A stretch of 64,000 bases of DNA, from contig NYUD01000086.1 of assembly GCA_002683825.1 (NCBI GenBank), positions 1 through 64,000 on the forward strand. The letters run 5' to 3'. Shown one piece after another: positions 3,595 through 39,649 of this stretch (positions are counted from its first letter, which is position 1; each line of letters starts with the position of its first letter). The position numbers and the translations under genes were made by a program. The notes beneath the pieces are model-generated. The model did not search any database. It saw only the letters and a list, made by a program, of their open reading frames with translations, and was not told the DNA's origin. This stretch comes from Planctomycetota bacterium. GTDB lineage: Bacteria > Planctomycetota > UBA1135 > GCA-002686595.

Positions 3595-4791
3595 TCAGGT
3601 CGACAGCTCGCTTTTGTCCAGCCGGCACAGCAACCACAGACCGCCGATCGAAGCTCCGGGGACCATGAAGATCGGCCCGAAAATGGGGATGGCGAGCAAG
3701 GCCCCTCCCACGATCCCAAACGTTACCAAGGCGGGCAGGTTGCGCAGGATGAAGCGCATGCGCATGCCCAGCGGCCACCCCCGGCGCTCCATCGGAATGT
3801 CAAGCAGGCCGATCGCCGTTGCGAAGCCACAGACGAAGGCGAACATGAAATAGCCCAGCATGGGGACGAAGTACAGCGGTAGCGCGAACAGCAAGAGAAC
3901 CCCGGTGATTACCGAGGCTTGCAAGCTGACCCAGGCCGCACGCCCTTCGATGCGTGCCACCCACAGGAGCCAGGAGCAGTAGCGGCGGTCGACCAGAACC
4001 GCAGCCAGGGTCGATACGCTCGCGACCGCGAGGACGCTCCAGCCGGGAATCCCATCGATGAAGAAGGCTGCTACCAGCGCCCCTAGAGTCGTCGTTCCCA
4101 CCCAGGTCGACAGGCGAACGCAGCGGTCCACGGGAATGTCCGTCGGCCGCTCGAGGCGATTGCGCGGATCCGCTCCGAACCACGTGGACTCCAGGCGGGA
4201 TTGGATCTCATCCAGGAAGGGCCCGGCCAGGGCTTCGTAGGCGATCGAAAAGCAATACCACGACACCAGCGACCCCACGAGAAACCACCCGAAGAGGCGT
4301 AGCGAACCGGACGTCAAGAGACCGATCAGCAGGTTCGCGACCCATTCGAAGCCGTCGACGATTCCGTTGAAGGAGTCCTTGAGCCAATCCCATTGGCTCG
4401 ACAGCCCCGCGAGCCAGGGCCACTCCGCTCCGACCTCGAAGGTGCCGGAGGTCCGCTCCTCGATGTAGGCATCGAGCACCCCGAAGGTCCAGACGAGAGC
4501 CAGCAACAACAAGACGGAGGTGACGATCAGGGGCGGCACGATCCAGCGCTTCAGACCCCGGGTGGCAAAGAGGTAGAAGAGCCCCCGGGGCAACGCGAAC
4601 AATCCCTCGACCACGCCGGAGAACGGTCCTCGCAGGGGTTTTCGCAGGGAAGGTTCGAGCGGGTTGCGCCCGCAGTGGGGGCAGCCCTTTCCGGTGCGCT
4701 CCGGTTTCATCGCTGCCCCCGGAGCGTGATACCCACACAGGGCGCAGGGTTCGACCTTCAAGGGTCGTTTGGGGGCCGTTCGTTCGCTCAT
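3595..4791 (-). CDS. EI24/CysZ-type integral membrane protein with N-terminal zinc ribbon
   Basis: This 398-aa protein starts with a short cytosolic zinc-ribbon-like segment (Cys16/19 and Cys37/40). At least five long hydrophobic stretches follow, the first near residues 83-105. The arrangement LxxP-rich loop, long amphipathic helices and paired membrane segments resembles the EI24 family, whose bacterial members include the sulfate transporter CysZ. No sulfur-assimilation genes are nearby, so a sulfate role is not supported. It precedes metG and is divergent from glutaryl-CoA dehydrogenase across a 139-bp gap that must hold both promoters. Confidence 0.65.
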   Translation of the reverse strand: MSERTAPKRPLKVEPCALCGYHAPGAAMKPERTGKGCPHCGRNPLEPSLRKPLRGPFSGVVEGLFALPRGLFYLFATRGLKRWIVPPLIVTSVLLLLALVWTFGVLDAYIEERTSGTFEVGAEWPWLAGLSSQWDWLKDSFNGIVDGFEWVANLLIGLLTSGSLRLFGWFLVGSLVSWYCFSIAYEALAGPFLDEIQSRLESTWFGADPRNRLERPTDIPVDRCVRLSTWVGTTTLGALVAAFFIDGIPGWSVLAVASVSTLAAVLVDRRYCSWLLWVARIEGRAAWVSLQASVITGVLLLFALPLYFVPMLGYFMFAFVCGFATAIGLLDIPMERRGWPLGMRMRFILRNLPALVTFGIVGGALLAIPIFGPIFMVPGASIGGLWLLCRLDKSELST

Positions 4792-30589: not shown

Positions 30590-31651
30590 ATGGCCCTGCT
30601 AAAGAAAAAAAGACTGACCGACTACGCCGCCGGCGCGGGGTGAGCTGCCAAGTTGCCCCCGGGCAAACTGGCGCAGGTCTTGCGGCAGACGGTGGTTGTG
30701 GACGACGAGCGGCTGCTCGTAGGGCCGGAGAGTTTTGACGATGCCGGTGTCGTGAGGCTCGGGCAAACCGAAGGTCTGCCCGACGCCCGCGTTGCGTTGG
30801 TGCAGACGGTCGACTTCTTTCCGCCGGTCGTCGACGATCCCGCGCTGTACGGTGAGATCGCGGCGGCGAACTCATTGTCAGACGTCTACGCGATGGGGGG
30901 GCGACCCTTCAGCGCGCTCGCGATCGCGGGTTTCCCCAAGGATTTTTCCGAAGAGTGGCGCGTCGAGATCATGCGCGCCGGAGCCGCCAAAGTGCGCGAA
31001 GCCGGCGCCGTCCTGGCGGGCGGGCACACGGTCGAATCGGATGTGCAGTTTGGCTATTCCGTCACGGGCCTGATCGATCCCGGTCGCGTTCGCGCGAATG
31101 CGGGCGCCCGGACGGGGGATGTCGCCTACCTGACGAAGTCCCTCGGCATGGGATGTATGACGACGGCGGCCAAGCTGCGGAAGATCTCCTGGGAGGAGGT
31201 CGAACCGGCGGCACGTCAGATGGCGGTGCTCAATGACCGCGCGGCGGAGGCGATGGACCTGTCCGATGCCCACGCGTGTACGGACATCACGGGCTTCGGC
31301 CTGGTCGGTCACGCGATGAACATCGCGCGCTCGAGCGAGGTTACTTTCACGGTCGAGGTCGATTCGGTGCCGCTCTTCCCCGGTGCACTCGAACTCGCAA
31401 AGCGAGGTCTTTTCTCGGGCGCGATGAAACGCGGGCGCGAAACCTTCGGTGGCGAGGTGTCGATCGGGAAAGGGTTGGTGGAGGCACACGTGGGACTCTT
31501 CTTCGATGCGGAGACCTCGGGCGGTCTCCTGATCGTCGTTCCGGAGGAGAGGGCAGTTCTCCTCGAGGCGGCGCTGACGGAACGGGATCTGCCGGTCCAT
31601 CGGATCGGCGTTTTCACCGAGCCCGAGTCGGTTGGGATCGTCCTTCGGTAG
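30590..31651 (+). CDS. selD: Selenide, water dikinase, selenocysteine-containing
   Basis: SelD makes selenophosphate from selenide and ATP. Reading from ATG 30590, codon 18 (30641-30643) is TGA. It falls exactly where the catalytic Cys/Sec occurs: RLTDYAAGAG-U-AAK, with the essential Lys at 21. Translation through the TGA gives 353 aa with SelD features throughout: VDFFPPVVDDP, ANSLSDVYAMGG, GGHTVES, TKSLGMG, DITGFGLVGHAM and SGGLL. An alternative start at TTG 30653 would remove the active site. A hairpin follows the TGA and tRNA-Sec lies 1.6 kb downstream. Automatic annotation would split or truncate this gene. The stop is 9 bp before the GDPD gene. Confidence 0.95.
30644..30672 (+). promoter_or_regulatory. 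Putative bacterial SECIS hairpin in selD
   Basis: Directly after the TGA codon, GCCA (30647-30650) pairs with TGGC (30669-30672). After a 2x2 internal mismatch, TTGCC (30653-30657) pairs with GGCAA (30662-30666) around a CCCG loop. The loop lies 15-18 nt past the TGA, the range in which SelB-binding apical loops of bacterial SECIS elements lie. Confidence 0.6.
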
Positions 31652-31660
31652 CTCCGCTCG

Positions 31661-33184
31661 ATGTTCAAGTCGCAGGAGGGGATCGGAGATCGGGGTCAGA
31701 AGGTTCCGGGGCCGCCGTGGATCCTGGGACATCGGGGGGCGTCCCGGGAGGCGCCCGAGAACACCCTGGCGGCCATGCTGCGCGCCCTCGAGCTCGGGAC
31801 CGATGGGGTCGAATACGATCTGCGCGCCTGCGCCAGTGGGGAGGCGATTCTGATTCACGACGACACCCTGGATCGGACCACCGACGCTCGCGGGCCCGTG
31901 GCCAGGCGCACGCTGCCGGAGCTCAGCGGTGTCGATGCGGGTGGGTGGTTCGACAAGCGCTTCGCCGGTGAACCCCTGCCGCTCTTCGAAGAGGCGCTCG
32001 AGCTGATGCGTGACGAGGCCGGAGCCCTTCCCCAGCACATGATCGACCTCAAGGATTCACGACTCGTCGGTGAGGTGGCGCGCCTTCTGGCGGAACGACG
32101 CGAGCCCTTGACCGTTCGGCTCGCGTCGTTCTCCAGGCGCGTGTGTCTGGAGGCGCGTGACCTGCACCTGCCGACGATGCTGCTTTCGGTCGAAGCGTCC
32201 GAGGACGACCTGCGCTTCGTGGCGGATGAAGCTATCGACGCCTACGGGACCGGCCCCGGCGGCTTTCGGGTGGCGGTCGGCCGGACGGAATGGCCTTGCG
32301 AAAAATGGTCGTGGGCGGTCGACGATCCGGCGGATCTGTACGCCGCCTGTCGCACACCGCTCTTCGGCTTCAACACCAACTACCCCGAACGCGCGCTGTC
32401 GGTGCGCGCATTGACACACCTCGCGCCCGACGATTCCGGCGGCCACCCGCTGCAGGTTCCGCGCCTGGAGGTGCTGATGGACCCCTCCTCCAAGCTGGAT
32501 CCGAAATCCACCTCGGGGGTGTGGTCGGGGCACTGGCAGGTTCCCCTGAGCATTCGCAACCCCTTTCCATTCCCGGTCGCGGTCGCCCTCGCCATCGTCG
32601 TTCGAGGTGGGGCGTTTCGCGTCGAGGGACTTCCCGAGGCCATTCGTCTGGGAGTGGGCGAAGAGGAGGTCGTGGAGCTCGACATCTCCGGTGGCAGTTT
32701 TTCGCCGGGCGAGGATCCATCGCTGTTCGCGCGCTACGTGTGGCGCCGAGGGCCCGGGCGTCCCGAGGAGAGTTTGATTCTTGATGCGCCCCTGGAGCGG
32801 GTGCGCAGCCTTTCCCTGCGGCGAGATACCGCTCGCTTGGCGATGTTGCGCGAGAGGGCCAGCGACCCCTCGGCCACGATGACCCTGCGCCTGCGTCAGG
32901 GCGAGGTGCTGGCACGGGTCGAGGATCCGGGCGGCCTGCACGACGTGCAAGCGCTCCTGCGCCTGGGGGCGCGCTCGCGCGTCGGAGGACCCGGCGTCCG
33001 CCTGCGCCTTTCGCCGCTGGACGAGCTCGAGCTCGAGCGGGGACTGGCCTTCTCGGTCGGTTTCCTGGGAGTCGATCCACGCTATCCCGATCGCCCGCCG
33101 CGCTTGCGCCGTTTTTGCGGCGGGTTGCCCGAGGGGCTCTTTTCCGGCGCTCCGGGGCGGCTCTTTTTGGATCCTTCGGCCTAG
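31661..33184 (+). CDS. Glycerophosphodiester phosphodiesterase with extra C-terminal domain
   Basis: The first 250 residues are a GDPD TIM barrel: LGHRGASREAPENTLAAM with catalytic His24-Arg25 and Glu33-Asn34, GVEYDLRA, and IHDDTLDRTT. These enzymes release glycerol-3-phosphate from deacylated phospholipids. No signal peptide is seen. The remaining 250 residues form a beta-rich region (HWQVPLSIRNPFPFPVAVALAIVVRGGAFRV looks like an Ig-like strand pair) that is not part of standard GDPD enzymes and that I do not recognise. The gene follows selD by 9 bp and may be co-transcribed, with no obvious functional link to selenium. Confidence 0.82.
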   Translation: MFKSQEGIGDRGQKVPGPPWILGHRGASREAPENTLAAMLRALELGTDGVEYDLRACASGEAILIHDDTLDRTTDARGPVARRTLPELSGVDAGGWFDKRFAGEPLPLFEEALELMRDEAGALPQHMIDLKDSRLVGEVARLLAERREPLTVRLASFSRRVCLEARDLHLPTMLLSVEASEDDLRFVADEAIDAYGTGPGGFRVAVGRTEWPCEKWSWAVDDPADLYAACRTPLFGFNTNYPERALSVRALTHLAPDDSGGHPLQVPRLEVLMDPSSKLDPKSTSGVWSGHWQVPLSIRNPFPFPVAVALAIVVRGGAFRVEGLPEAIRLGVGEEEVVELDISGGSFSPGEDPSLFARYVWRRGPGRPEESLILDAPLERVRSLSLRRDTARLAMLRERASDPSATMTLRLRQGEVLARVEDPGGLHDVQALLRLGARSRVGGPGVRLRLSPLDELELERGLAFSVGFLGVDPRYPDRPPRLRRFCGGLPEGLFSGAPGRLFLDPSA

Positions 33185-33200
33185 GACCTCCTCCTTGCTC

Positions 33201-33230
33201 TTGAGGTTCGCGGGTGCGAGCGCCTTAATG
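33201..33230 (+). promoter_or_regulatory. Candidate promoter of tRNA-Sec
   Basis: TTGAGG (33201-33206) and TTAATG (33225-33230), spaced 18 bp, lie 12 bp before the tRNA start. The same stretch can also form a GGGTGC/GCACCC hairpin (33212-33239) that could end transcription of the upstream gene instead. Confidence 0.3.
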
Positions 33231-33242
33231 CCTGCACCCAGC

Positions 33243-33340
33243 GGGAGTGGATCGGTGCTGGTGTGCCGCCCGGTCTTCAAAGCCGGTAGGGCCTCGTGAA
33301 CAGCGGGGCCGGTGGGTTCGATTCCCATGCACTCCCGCCA
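33243..33340 (+). tRNA. selC: tRNA-Sec, anticodon TCA
   Basis: This 98-nt tRNA has every selC hallmark. The acceptor begins GGGAGTG and ends CACTCCC with discriminator G and encoded CCA. The D-arm is long (CGGTGC/GTGCCG, 6 bp around TGGT). The anticodon stem CCGGT/GCCGG holds loop CTTCAAA (anticodon TCA, reading UGA). An extended variable arm (GGCCTC/GGGGCC around GTGAACAGC) and the T-arm TGGG/CCCA follow. The eighth acceptor pair is a G-G mismatch as drawn. It shows that the organism inserts selenocysteine, in agreement with the in-frame TGA of selD. Confidence 0.95.
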
Positions 33341-33359
33341 TCCCCCACCCTCCAGAACC

Positions 33360-34340
33360 TTGGCGATTGAAATCCGCCCCCTGCAGAAGGGCGATGAGGC
33401 CTCGCTCCTCGAAGCTCTGAACGCCCATCGTGGGGGATGTGTACAACAAGGGCATGCGCTGAGCTCCGAGGAGCTGGCCTGGTTCCTGGCCCATCCCAGC
33501 GGGACGCGGACCTTGCTGGCCTGGGAGGAGAAGGAGATCGTCGGCCACCTCTCCGCTGCCCGTCACACGATGTGGATGAAAGGCAGGCAGGTTCTTTTCG
33601 CCGAGCTTCTCGGGGGTTTTGTCGCGATCTCCCATCGCGCGCGGCTCGGAAAGCGCGGTCTGTTTGCGCGTCTGTGCCGCGAATTTTTCTCCGAGCAGGG
33701 GATCGATGGGGACTTCATCTACTACGGCTGGCCGACACGCGAGGAGTGGCGTCTGGGTCGCAAGCTTCTGGCATACGAAACCATCCGCACGCAGGTTGCG
33801 TTGACACTTTCCGTCGGGAACGCTGCGGAGGGTTTGCCCGCGGAGGTAGAACTCATGGAGCGCTTCGATCACCAGGCGCGTTGGTTGTGGGATCGGTGCG
33901 CCGCGAAATTCGGAGCGAGCGCGATTCGAGACGAGGGTTTCTTGAATCACCGCTTCGTCGAGCGCCCCGGATACGACTATGAGAACTTCGGCGTGCGCGA
34001 CGACGACGGGGTCTTGCGGGGCTATGCCGTATTCCGCAAGGGGCAGTGGGGGGAGGAGACGAAGGGGTTGATTTGCGATTGGCTGGTGCCCACGGACGAG
34101 CCCGAAGTCGGCCGGCTTCTTCTGCGCGCGCTCGAAGCCCATGGGCGGACGCAAGGGGTGCAGCAACTCTTTTGTCTTCTGCCCGAGTGGTCGCCCTGGT
34201 TCGACAGCTTCCAGCGCGCGGGCTTTCTGGCCACCGATGCCGAACGCATGTGGATAGCGCGAACCAGCGCTCGCCGCTTCGATGTTTTCTGGCTGCGCAC
34301 GCAGTGGTTCAGCACCCTGGCCGACACCCTGATCGTCTAG
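33360..34340 (+). CDS. GNAT-type acyltransferase, paralogue 1
   Basis: A 326-aa protein with a two-part GNAT fold. The acetyl-CoA-binding region (ELLGGFVAISHRARLGKRGLFARL) occupies the first half. The second half carries YAVFRKGQWGEETKGLICDWLVP and ends RRFDVFWLRTQWFSTLADTLIV. The next gene has the same order and the same C-terminal pattern, so the pair is a tandem duplication. Longer in-frame starts run back into tRNA-Sec, so TTG 33360 (19 bp after the CCA end) is the likely start. The substrate is unknown; related long GNATs often occur in envelope glycan loci. Confidence 0.72.
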   Translation: MAIEIRPLQKGDEASLLEALNAHRGGCVQQGHALSSEELAWFLAHPSGTRTLLAWEEKEIVGHLSAARHTMWMKGRQVLFAELLGGFVAISHRARLGKRGLFARLCREFFSEQGIDGDFIYYGWPTREEWRLGRKLLAYETIRTQVALTLSVGNAAEGLPAEVELMERFDHQARWLWDRCAAKFGASAIRDEGFLNHRFVERPGYDYENFGVRDDDGVLRGYAVFRKGQWGEETKGLICDWLVPTDEPEVGRLLLRALEAHGRTQGVQQLFCLLPEWSPWFDSFQRAGFLATDAERMWIARTSARRFDVFWLRTQWFSTLADTLIV

Positions 34341-36405: not shown

Positions 36406-36505
36406 GCTGGCTTGAATGTGGAAGGGAGTGGTGCGAAGGAGCGATCACTCTTCCGCTTCCGGAGGCTAGATCCGCTATCCTCGGCTGCGAGATAATGTGG
36501 CTCCG

Positions 36506-38062
36506 ATGAAGTACTTGGGAAAAGGTCGCTCGCTCTCTCGCCGGGAGGTGAGTTTTCGGTCCGTGTTTCTGGGGCCCTTGGGACTCGTGGGGCTATGCGC
36601 CTTGGTTCCCCACCAGAGGGAGCATGAGTCGGGTGGCGTCACCCACGTTCGCATCGAAGGCCCTCTCGACGTCGGCACCCAGGCCTTGCTCTCGCGCGCC
36701 CTGCGTGAGGCGGGCAAACGCGACGACCGGCTTCTGCTCGAAGTCGACACGCCCGGGGGCGAGATCGAGTTGATGTGGAAGCTGGCCAGCGCGCTGCTCG
36801 ACGCCTCTGACCAGGGAATCGGAACCGTCTGCTGGGTGCACGATCGAGCCCTTTCGGCGGGGTCCTTGCTCGCCATGGCTTGCGAGCGGCTCTACATGCG
36901 CGAACACGCCACGATCGGTTCCGCCCTGCCGGTCTCGATCGGGCCCGCCGGCCTGATGCCGGCGTCCCAGGACGATGAGGTCAAGGAGAAGCTCTCCTCC
37001 GCGCTGCGTGGCGAGTTCAGGGGCGTTGCGGAAAAACGCGGTCGGCCCGGATTGGTCGCCGAAGCGATGGTCGATCCCGAGGTGGAGGTGCTCGAGGTGC
37101 GCATTGACGGTGAGTTGCGTCTCATCTCGGCGGTCGCCCTCGAGGACTTGAGAAGGCGCGGCGACGAGGTGCGTTTCGAGCGTACCGTTTGTGCGCGCGG
37201 GGAGCTCTTCAACGCCACCGGACGGGAAGCCGTGGAGCTGGGGCTCGCCGATGGTCTGGCGGAATCGATCGGGGAGGTCATCGGCAAGATCGGTGTCGGA
37301 TCCGTAATTCCCTCCGAGGTGCGGCGTACGCGTTCGGAGGACCTCGCCGGTTGGTTGTACACCTTGACGCCCCTGCTTCTCATCGCAGCCTTTGTCTTCG
37401 CCTTTCTAGAGCTCAAGGTGCCGGGCTTTGGATTACCGGGTGTGCTTTCTGTGGTGTGCATTGCGACCCTGCTCTTCGGCCGCTATCTCGTCGGCCTGGC
37501 CGACATTCCTCACATCGTTCTCATCGCCCTCGGAGTCGGGCTGGTAGCGACGGAATTGTTCCTGATGCCCGGGACGATCTGGGTGGGTGGGCTCGGAGCG
37601 CTCCTGTGCGTCGCGGGGCTGATCTGGTCCTTCGCAGGCAACAGTACGGGATTCGAATACGCGTTGGATCGACGGATCCTCTTCGATGAGTCCTTCCGCG
37701 TCGTGGTGTCCGCTTTTGCGTCCTTGATCTTCATATGGGGCTTCTCGAGGGTGCTTCCAAAGACCCCGGTCTTCTCCAAGCTGATCCTTGAAGCTCCGGC
37801 GCGGGCGATCCCGAGCGCGGGCGATAGAGAACGCAAGGGGGTGGCGAACATCGGTGCGTGCGGTCGCGCGTTGACGCGCCTGCGCCCGGCAGGCAAGGTG
37901 GTTCTCGATGCGGACCCGGCGGCCGAGTTTGAAGCTCGTTCGGACGGGGGAGAGATCTCGCGTGACGGGCGTATCCGCGTCGTCGGAGCCATGGACGACG
38001 GGCGACTGGTCGTCGCCCCTGAATCCGTCGATTGGGAGAGCAAGGAGAACCTCAGCGTATGA
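36506..38062 (+). CDS. NfeD-family membrane protein with ClpP-class serine protease domain
   Basis: The 518-aa protein has a signal anchor, then a SppA/ClpP-type protease domain with LLEVDTPGGEIELMWKLASALL, the nucleophile Ser117 in RALSAGSLLAMACERLYM, and a Lys in VKEKL as candidate base. About four membrane helices follow (LAGWLYTLTPLLLIAAFVFAFLELKVPGFGLPGV), and a C-terminal OB-fold-like NfeD domain (ANIGACGRALTRLRPAGKVVL). NfeD proteases are encoded next to flotillin or stomatin partners, as here. The ATG at 36506 is preferred to an in-frame GTG 9 bp upstream. The stop overlaps the next gene by 4 nt. Confidence 0.9.
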   Translation: MKYLGKGRSLSRREVSFRSVFLGPLGLVGLCALVPHQREHESGGVTHVRIEGPLDVGTQALLSRALREAGKRDDRLLLEVDTPGGEIELMWKLASALLDASDQGIGTVCWVHDRALSAGSLLAMACERLYMREHATIGSALPVSIGPAGLMPASQDDEVKEKLSSALRGEFRGVAEKRGRPGLVAEAMVDPEVEVLEVRIDGELRLISAVALEDLRRRGDEVRFERTVCARGELFNATGREAVELGLADGLAESIGEVIGKIGVGSVIPSEVRRTRSEDLAGWLYTLTPLLLIAAFVFAFLELKVPGFGLPGVLSVVCIATLLFGRYLVGLADIPHIVLIALGVGLVATELFLMPGTIWVGGLGALLCVAGLIWSFAGNSTGFEYALDRRILFDESFRVVVSAFASLIFIWGFSRVLPKTPVFSKLILEAPARAIPSAGDRERKGVANIGACGRALTRLRPAGKVVLDADPAAEFEARSDGGEISRDGRIRVVGAMDDGRLVVAPESVDWESKENLSV

Positions 38063-38602: not shown

Positions 38603-39649
38603 ATGCTCTCGTTCGTACTCCGGGAAACAGAATCGATGGGATTCCCGAAACTGGCGATGTTTTTTGCCATCGCTGCCGCACTTCTCATCTTCCTCTTCGT
38701 CTTTCTTCGTTATGCGAACCTCTGGGTGCGATCAATCCTCACGAAAGCCGGGGTCGGTCTGCTCGACATGGTGGGGATGAGTCTGCGGCGAGTCAGTCCG
38801 GCGACGATCGTCAACGCCAGGGTCAATCTGGTTCAGGCGCGTATCTCCGACATCGACAAGCAGGATCTCGAGGCGCACTTCCTGGCCGGCGGCGACGTGC
38901 CGCGGGTAGTACGTTCGCTGATCGCTGCGGACCGGGCCAAGATCCCTTTGAACTTCGAGACCGCCGCGGGCATCGACCTCGCGGGCCGGGACCTCCTGGA
39001 TGCCGTGCGAACCTACGTCACGCCCAAGGTGATCGATTGCCCCAATCCCGCCTCGGGAAAGACCGAGGTTGCGGCCATCGCAAAGGACGGGATTCAGGTG
39101 CTCGCCAAGGCCCGCGTGACGGTGCGTACGAATCTGAACCGTCTGGTCGGTGGGGCCGGCGAGGAAACGATTATCGCGCGAGTCGGCGAAGCCATCGTGT
39201 CGACCATCGGCTCGAAGGATTCGCACAAGTCGGTTCTCGAGAACCCCGACGAAATCACCAAAACCGTTCTCGGCAGCGGGCTCGACGCCGGAACGGCATT
39301 CGAGATCGTGTCGGTGGACATCGCCGATGTGGACATAGGCAACAACATCGGAGCTCGCCTCCAGGCGGACCAGGCGGAGGCCGACAAGCGCGTCGCCCAG
39401 GCACTGGCGGAAAAACGCCGCGCGATGGCGGTTGCGGCCGAGCAGGAGTTCAAGGCCAGCGTCGTCGAAAACCGGGCCAAGGTCGTGCTTGCAGAAGTGG
39501 AGGTACCGAAGGCCATGGCCGACGCCCTGCGCAGCGGCAACCTGGGGGTGATGGACCTGCAGAGGCTCCAAAACATCCAGTCCGACACGAAGATGCGCAC
39601 GGGCATCGCCCAGGTGGGCGACACCAAGTCCGAGACGGACACACCCTAG
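38603..39649 (+). CDS. floA: Flotillin-like protein FloA
   Basis: The 348-aa protein has one hydrophobic hairpin or helix at about 16-40 ([21 protein letters not shown]), then the SPFH-like region typical of the YqfA/FloA family: [65 protein letters not shown], and the C-terminal coiled coil [28 protein letters not shown]. FloA organises functional membrane microdomains. It lies 52 bp after the two NfeD genes, the same association as the Bacillus subtilis yqeZ-yqfA-yqfB operon. A second ATG at 38636 could also be the start. Confidence 0.92.

Follow-up and report, generated by a model that had tools for sequence, protein, structure and literature searches.

The selD gene and its neighbours

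The window (the whole stretch of planctomycete DNA that was analysed, 64,000 nucleotides) carries a selD gene, with a tRNA-Sec gene 1.6 kb downstream. The features were placed as follows.

30590–31651, + strand: selD, selenide, water dikinase (selenophosphate synthetase), by TIGR00476 match and alignment to PDB SelD chains
30641–30643, + strand: in-frame TGA, predicted to be read as selenocysteine 18 at the catalytic position (GAG-U18-AAK), by homologues (TGA 74/80, TGC or TGT 6/80) and a family without a Cys form
30650–30652, + strand: codon of Lys21, aligned with the Lys that is conserved in the UxxK/CxxK motif, by comparison with solved SelD proteins and homologues
31661–33184, + strand: glycerophosphodiester phosphodiesterase-like gene between selD and tRNA-Sec, by Pfam PF03009, its linkage kept in relatives (tblastn, tRNA positions)
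33243–33340, + strand: tRNA-Sec (selC), anticodon TCA, by ARAGORN and Rfam RF01852 (73.4 bits, gathering score 47)

The selD frame of 353 codons runs from ATG 30590 through TGA 30641–30643, its sole internal TGA, to the stop codon TAG at 31649–31651. The read-through product was matched by NCBIfam TIGR00476 (selD) over residues 8–321 with 330.2 bits (cut-off 125), in agreement with an earlier, sequence-only reading in which a frame from ATG 30590 meets TGA at 30641 and continues in the same frame as SelD. Best solved relatives of the product were SelD chains, including 3u0o and 2yye, and its alignment with solved SelD proteins runs over the full length. The comparison with Sec- and Cys-type SelD that had been proposed at that stage put the TGA opposite the catalytic residue of both chains. 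The xxK that follows the catalytic Cys/Sec was also present, U18-A-A-K21 being aligned to C-x-x-K. When recoding is left out of account, the mechanical ORF begins at TTG 30653 and the active site is lost, which is the truncated gene call that had been foreseen. A composition scan returned two other TGA-interrupted candidates in the window, at 3597 and 59153 on the minus strand; both look like adjacent genes of which the first ends in TGA.

The order selD, glycerophosphodiester phosphodiesterase-like gene, tRNA-Sec and GNAT-like acetyltransferase genes was observed in eight genomes (31661–34340 in the window, and seven others). An NfeD1b-type gene (36497–38062) and a FloA flotillin-like gene (38603–39649) of the window share a strand. 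An Rfam mir-375 match at 32094–32131 scored under the gathering score and was set aside as a chance hairpin.

Conservation of the in-frame TGA

Homologous loci were collected by one scan of genome contigs (80 loci, several phyla). TGA stood at the catalytic position in 74 of them and a Cys codon (TGC or TGT) in the other six; an in-frame UGA at the Cys/Sec position of homologues, as the bacterial selenoprotein criterion has it, was thus found (74 TGA, 6 Cys, n = 80). The segment ahead of the TGA was kept as well, as RLTDYAxCAG and variants, with the overall form RLTDYAxxAG-U-AAK. Within the window's own family of 41 genomes, a SelD match over the cut-off was obtained in 37; 36 of these had one inner TGA and one started after that codon, and an additional, partial match at the end of a contig likewise includes a TGA. 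In the 37 family genomes whose match covers the catalytic codon, TGA was found throughout and no Cys-form SelD was seen. In most planctomycete relatives a Cys stands three residues before Sec (CAGU), where it may form a Cys–Sec redox pair; the window SelD has Gly at that place (GAGU), the same as E. coli SelD.

These data bear on two readings in which no recoding would take place. A pseudogene or a sequencing error, with a true stop at 30641, would be in keeping with TGA as a standard stop codon and with a mechanical ORF that resumes at TTG 30653; yet homologues from several phyla share this TGA (74 of 80), as does every family genome in which the codon is covered, and the frame is open and conserved on both sides of it, which refutes this reading and leaves it next to no probability. 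Translation from 30653 would give a SelD devoid of the active-site segment, from an ORF that does span most of the protein, but a downstream start would not preserve the N-terminal segment RLTDYAxxAG-U-AAK that is kept in relatives. Homologues starting at the equivalent of 30653 had been named as evidence that would speak against recoding; the pre-TGA segment was instead retained, which favours recoding and makes the downstream start scarcely credible. Conservation of the TGA in 74 of 80 homologues, together with that of the upstream segment, therefore excludes chance, a sequencing error or a pseudogene as explanations, and equally translation from 30653.

Selenium machinery and other predicted selenoproteins

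The genome assembly comprises 118 contigs at 92% completeness. Both selA (483.6 bits, cut-off 267.9) and selB (350.3 bits together with its in-frame neighbours, cut-off 242.25) were found elsewhere in it above curated cut-offs, a check on which the sequence-only reading had been made to depend, and the tRNA-Sec gene which that reading placed in the same locus was located by ARAGORN and RF01852 at 33243–33340. The genome thus holds selA, selB, selC and selD, the set named in the bacterial selenoprotein criterion. A ybbB-type tRNA 2-selenouridine synthase was also present (261.1 bits, cut-off 219.75), and two pathways are therefore probably served by SelD. No Cys-type SelD that could free the first from dependence on its own selenocysteine was found in this 92%-complete assembly, the two other matches to the SelD profile (24.9 and 22.4 bits) being too weak and far below the cut-off of 125.

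Further selenoproteins were sought family by family, using five Pfam or NCBIfam families. TGA was found at the known catalytic codon of FdhA (CSRAU-HSP), two peroxiredoxins (TPGU, TPTU), three thioredoxin-like proteins (WUGPC), two AhpD-like proteins (CHYU) and a SelW-like protein (CFQU); with these nine further genes, which lie at nine loci on eight contigs, the genome has at least 10 selenoprotein candidates including SelD. As the nine carry TGA at redox-catalytic codons, the decoding system appears to be in general use. Selenoprotein-rich organisms are usually defined as those with at least six selenoproteins (PMC5029168), and on its predicted genes the window's genome is selenoprotein-rich by that definition. 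AhpC/TSA-family matches with an inner TGA numbered at least 71 in 13 family genomes, with at least two per genome; catalytic codon positions were confirmed in the window's genome, and the counts of the other 12 are of inner TGA codons only. In a 2026 review the groups most enriched in selenoproteins are Thermodesulfobacteriota, Synergistota and Clostridia, with no mention of Planctomycetes, and literature searches, whose coverage left out most subscription journals, returned no study of a planctomycete selenoproteome.

The same genes bear on a third alternative, that UGA stands for an amino acid other than Sec through a suppressor or a reassigned code. Nothing specific speaks for it; against it stand nine other redox proteins of the genome with TGA in place of the catalytic Cys/Sec codon, Cys as the homologues' alternative to TGA and the complete Sec machinery, and its probability is accordingly minimal. 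We conclude that the window gene almost certainly encodes a Sec-containing selenophosphate synthetase, in which UGA 30641–30643 would be read as Sec at the active site.

Position of the probable SECIS hairpin

Two hairpins downstream of the TGA were compared.

30644–30674, + strand: hairpin proposed earlier, loop CCCG at 30658–30661; folds locally, unsupported as SECIS
30668–30688, + strand: most likely SECIS hairpin, loop GGUCU at 30676–30680, by covariation in 30 relatives, RNAalifold and the bSECIS model

The bacterial SECIS model specifies a loop of 3–9 nt with a G among its first two nucleotides, a stem of 4–16 bp, a spacing of 16–37 nt and an energy of at most −7.5 kcal/mol (PMC13188914). 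The 30668–30688 hairpin falls within all of these constraints, with a 5-nt loop that starts with GG, seven pairs with one G-G mismatch, an apical loop 32 nt after the UGA and −9.2 kcal/mol. Across 30 relatives 87.5% of the cells of its helix were paired and changes on both sides were seen in five of eight pairs; its covariation score was 0.277 against a shuffled mean of 0.146, a value that none of 500 shuffles reached, and the helix scored 0.085 or less when slid along the alignment. RNAalifold picked this hairpin unprompted. The GGUCU apical loop also follows the UGA of fdhA, the SelW-like gene (selW) and an AhpD-like gene of the same genome, and a GGUC loop follows that of one thioredoxin-like gene. 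By stability alone the hairpin stands out only mildly, since of 200 sequences recoded synonymously for this peptide 23 were as stable; over the whole set the signal was stronger, and synonymous-codon shuffles gave a mean z of −1.97 for 75 TGA sequences against −0.44 for 6 Cys sequences. The case for 30668–30688 is thus a comparative one, and on it this hairpin is most likely the SECIS of selD.

The sequence-only reading had instead proposed a hairpin with its loop 15–18 nt downstream of the TGA, that is, 30644–30674, and a Sec-type SelD that uses this element as SECIS was weighed separately. It exists as a fold: taken by itself it reaches about −15.5 kcal/mol and is unusual against shuffles (z −2.0), in the window alone it folds as well as or better than 30668–30688, and its pairing in relatives is slightly above that of shuffles. 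As a conserved SECIS it did not hold up. Only 72% of cells were paired in the 30 relatives against 87.5%, with a covariation of 0.079 against 0.277; five of 11 pairs fail in 11–19 sequences, the two outer pairs are unpaired in 18 of 30 relatives, and RNAalifold chooses 30668–30688. It also lies outside the bSECIS model in two respects, as the first two nucleotides of CCCG include no G, and the spacing of 14 nt is below the range of 16–37. Weak covariation and disagreement with the model led to its rejection, and a role for it as SECIS is improbable.

Distance of the SECIS-like hairpin among clades

The region 3–45 nt after the catalytic TGA was surveyed for the best SECIS-like hairpin in 80 selD loci. 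The clade of the window has it 32–33 nt from the UGA and a sister clade, also planctomycete, at 26 nt (19/19 rows); the distance was 20 nt in Zixiibacteriota and Ignavibacteriota (8/8) and 16–17 nt in seven Chloroflexales, the eighth of which has Cys. The 26-nt alignment, two rows of which come from outside the sister clade, was 96.3% paired for the 26-nt helix against 50.6% for the 32-nt helix; the window's set was 55.0% paired for the 26-nt helix, and the 20-nt set was 89.1% paired for its own. Covariation at the set's own place was found in the 32-, 26- and 20-nt sets, to which these results apply, the 16-nt set being small and uniform. On the tree, nine changes among five states (four distances and Cys) were counted against 38.5 for shuffled labels, the labels having been read by best energy off the same sequences and under strong coding constraint. 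The comparison suggests that the selD SECIS hairpin probably moved along the message in evolution while the Sec codon stayed fixed, to about 32, 26, 20 or 16 nt according to clade.

Mechanism and comparison with known systems

SelB carrying Sec-tRNA-Sec binds the hairpin of the bacterial system and delivers Sec at the UGA, and a SelD with Sec at its catalytic position makes selenophosphate, the donor required by SelA. From the genes and codons observed here we infer SelB binding, Sec insertion and catalysis for the window SelD. Selenide and ATP would be turned into selenophosphate by means of Sec18 and Lys21; this product would feed SelA for selenocysteine, including that of SelD itself, and very probably also the YbbB-type enzyme for tRNA selenouridine. 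The self-dependent loop that had been pointed out, in which SelD needs Sec in order to make the selenium donor for Sec, is real in logic, yet it is common to every Sec-type SelD.

The gene is not a surprising case, as Sec-type SelD makes up a standard selenoprotein family all members of which are self-dependent in this way (PMC4561486, PMC1794560). Sec was encoded by 19% of the prokaryotic SelD genes detected in a 2015 survey, always at the same position (PMC4561486). The window selD is an ordinary member of this known family that is misannotated as truncated unless recoding is considered. What interest the locus has is modest and lies in its lineage and in the movable SECIS. The planctomycete family keeps Sec in SelD, has no Cys version in the sample and has many other selenoproteins, a setting that may be useful. 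The selD genes of this family and of the neighbouring clades could serve as a natural series for the tolerance of SelB to different UGA-to-SECIS distances, and would also bear on how an RNA signal that lies within a coding sequence can shift its position.

Among known elements, the window hairpin resembles bSECIS elements in its small loop, which starts with GG and then U, and in a stem, spacing and energy within the model ranges; it differs in that its spacing is close to the maximum allowed and its stem has one mismatch. Among known proteins, E. coli Cys-type SelD (3u0o) shares the GAG-C/U-xxK active site over a nearly full-length alignment, with the window TGA opposite the Cys of GAGCGCK; it has Cys where the window has Sec, and UGA recoding is therefore unneeded there. 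SelD of Aquifex aeolicus (PDB 2yye/2zod), the native residue of which is Sec, has Sec/Cys at the same place followed by AAK, belongs to the same fold family and is aligned over nearly its full length, the window TGA standing opposite the Cys of SSGCAAK in 2yye; it is distant by sequence, whereas the window gene is planctomycete, with its putative SECIS about 32 nt from the UGA.
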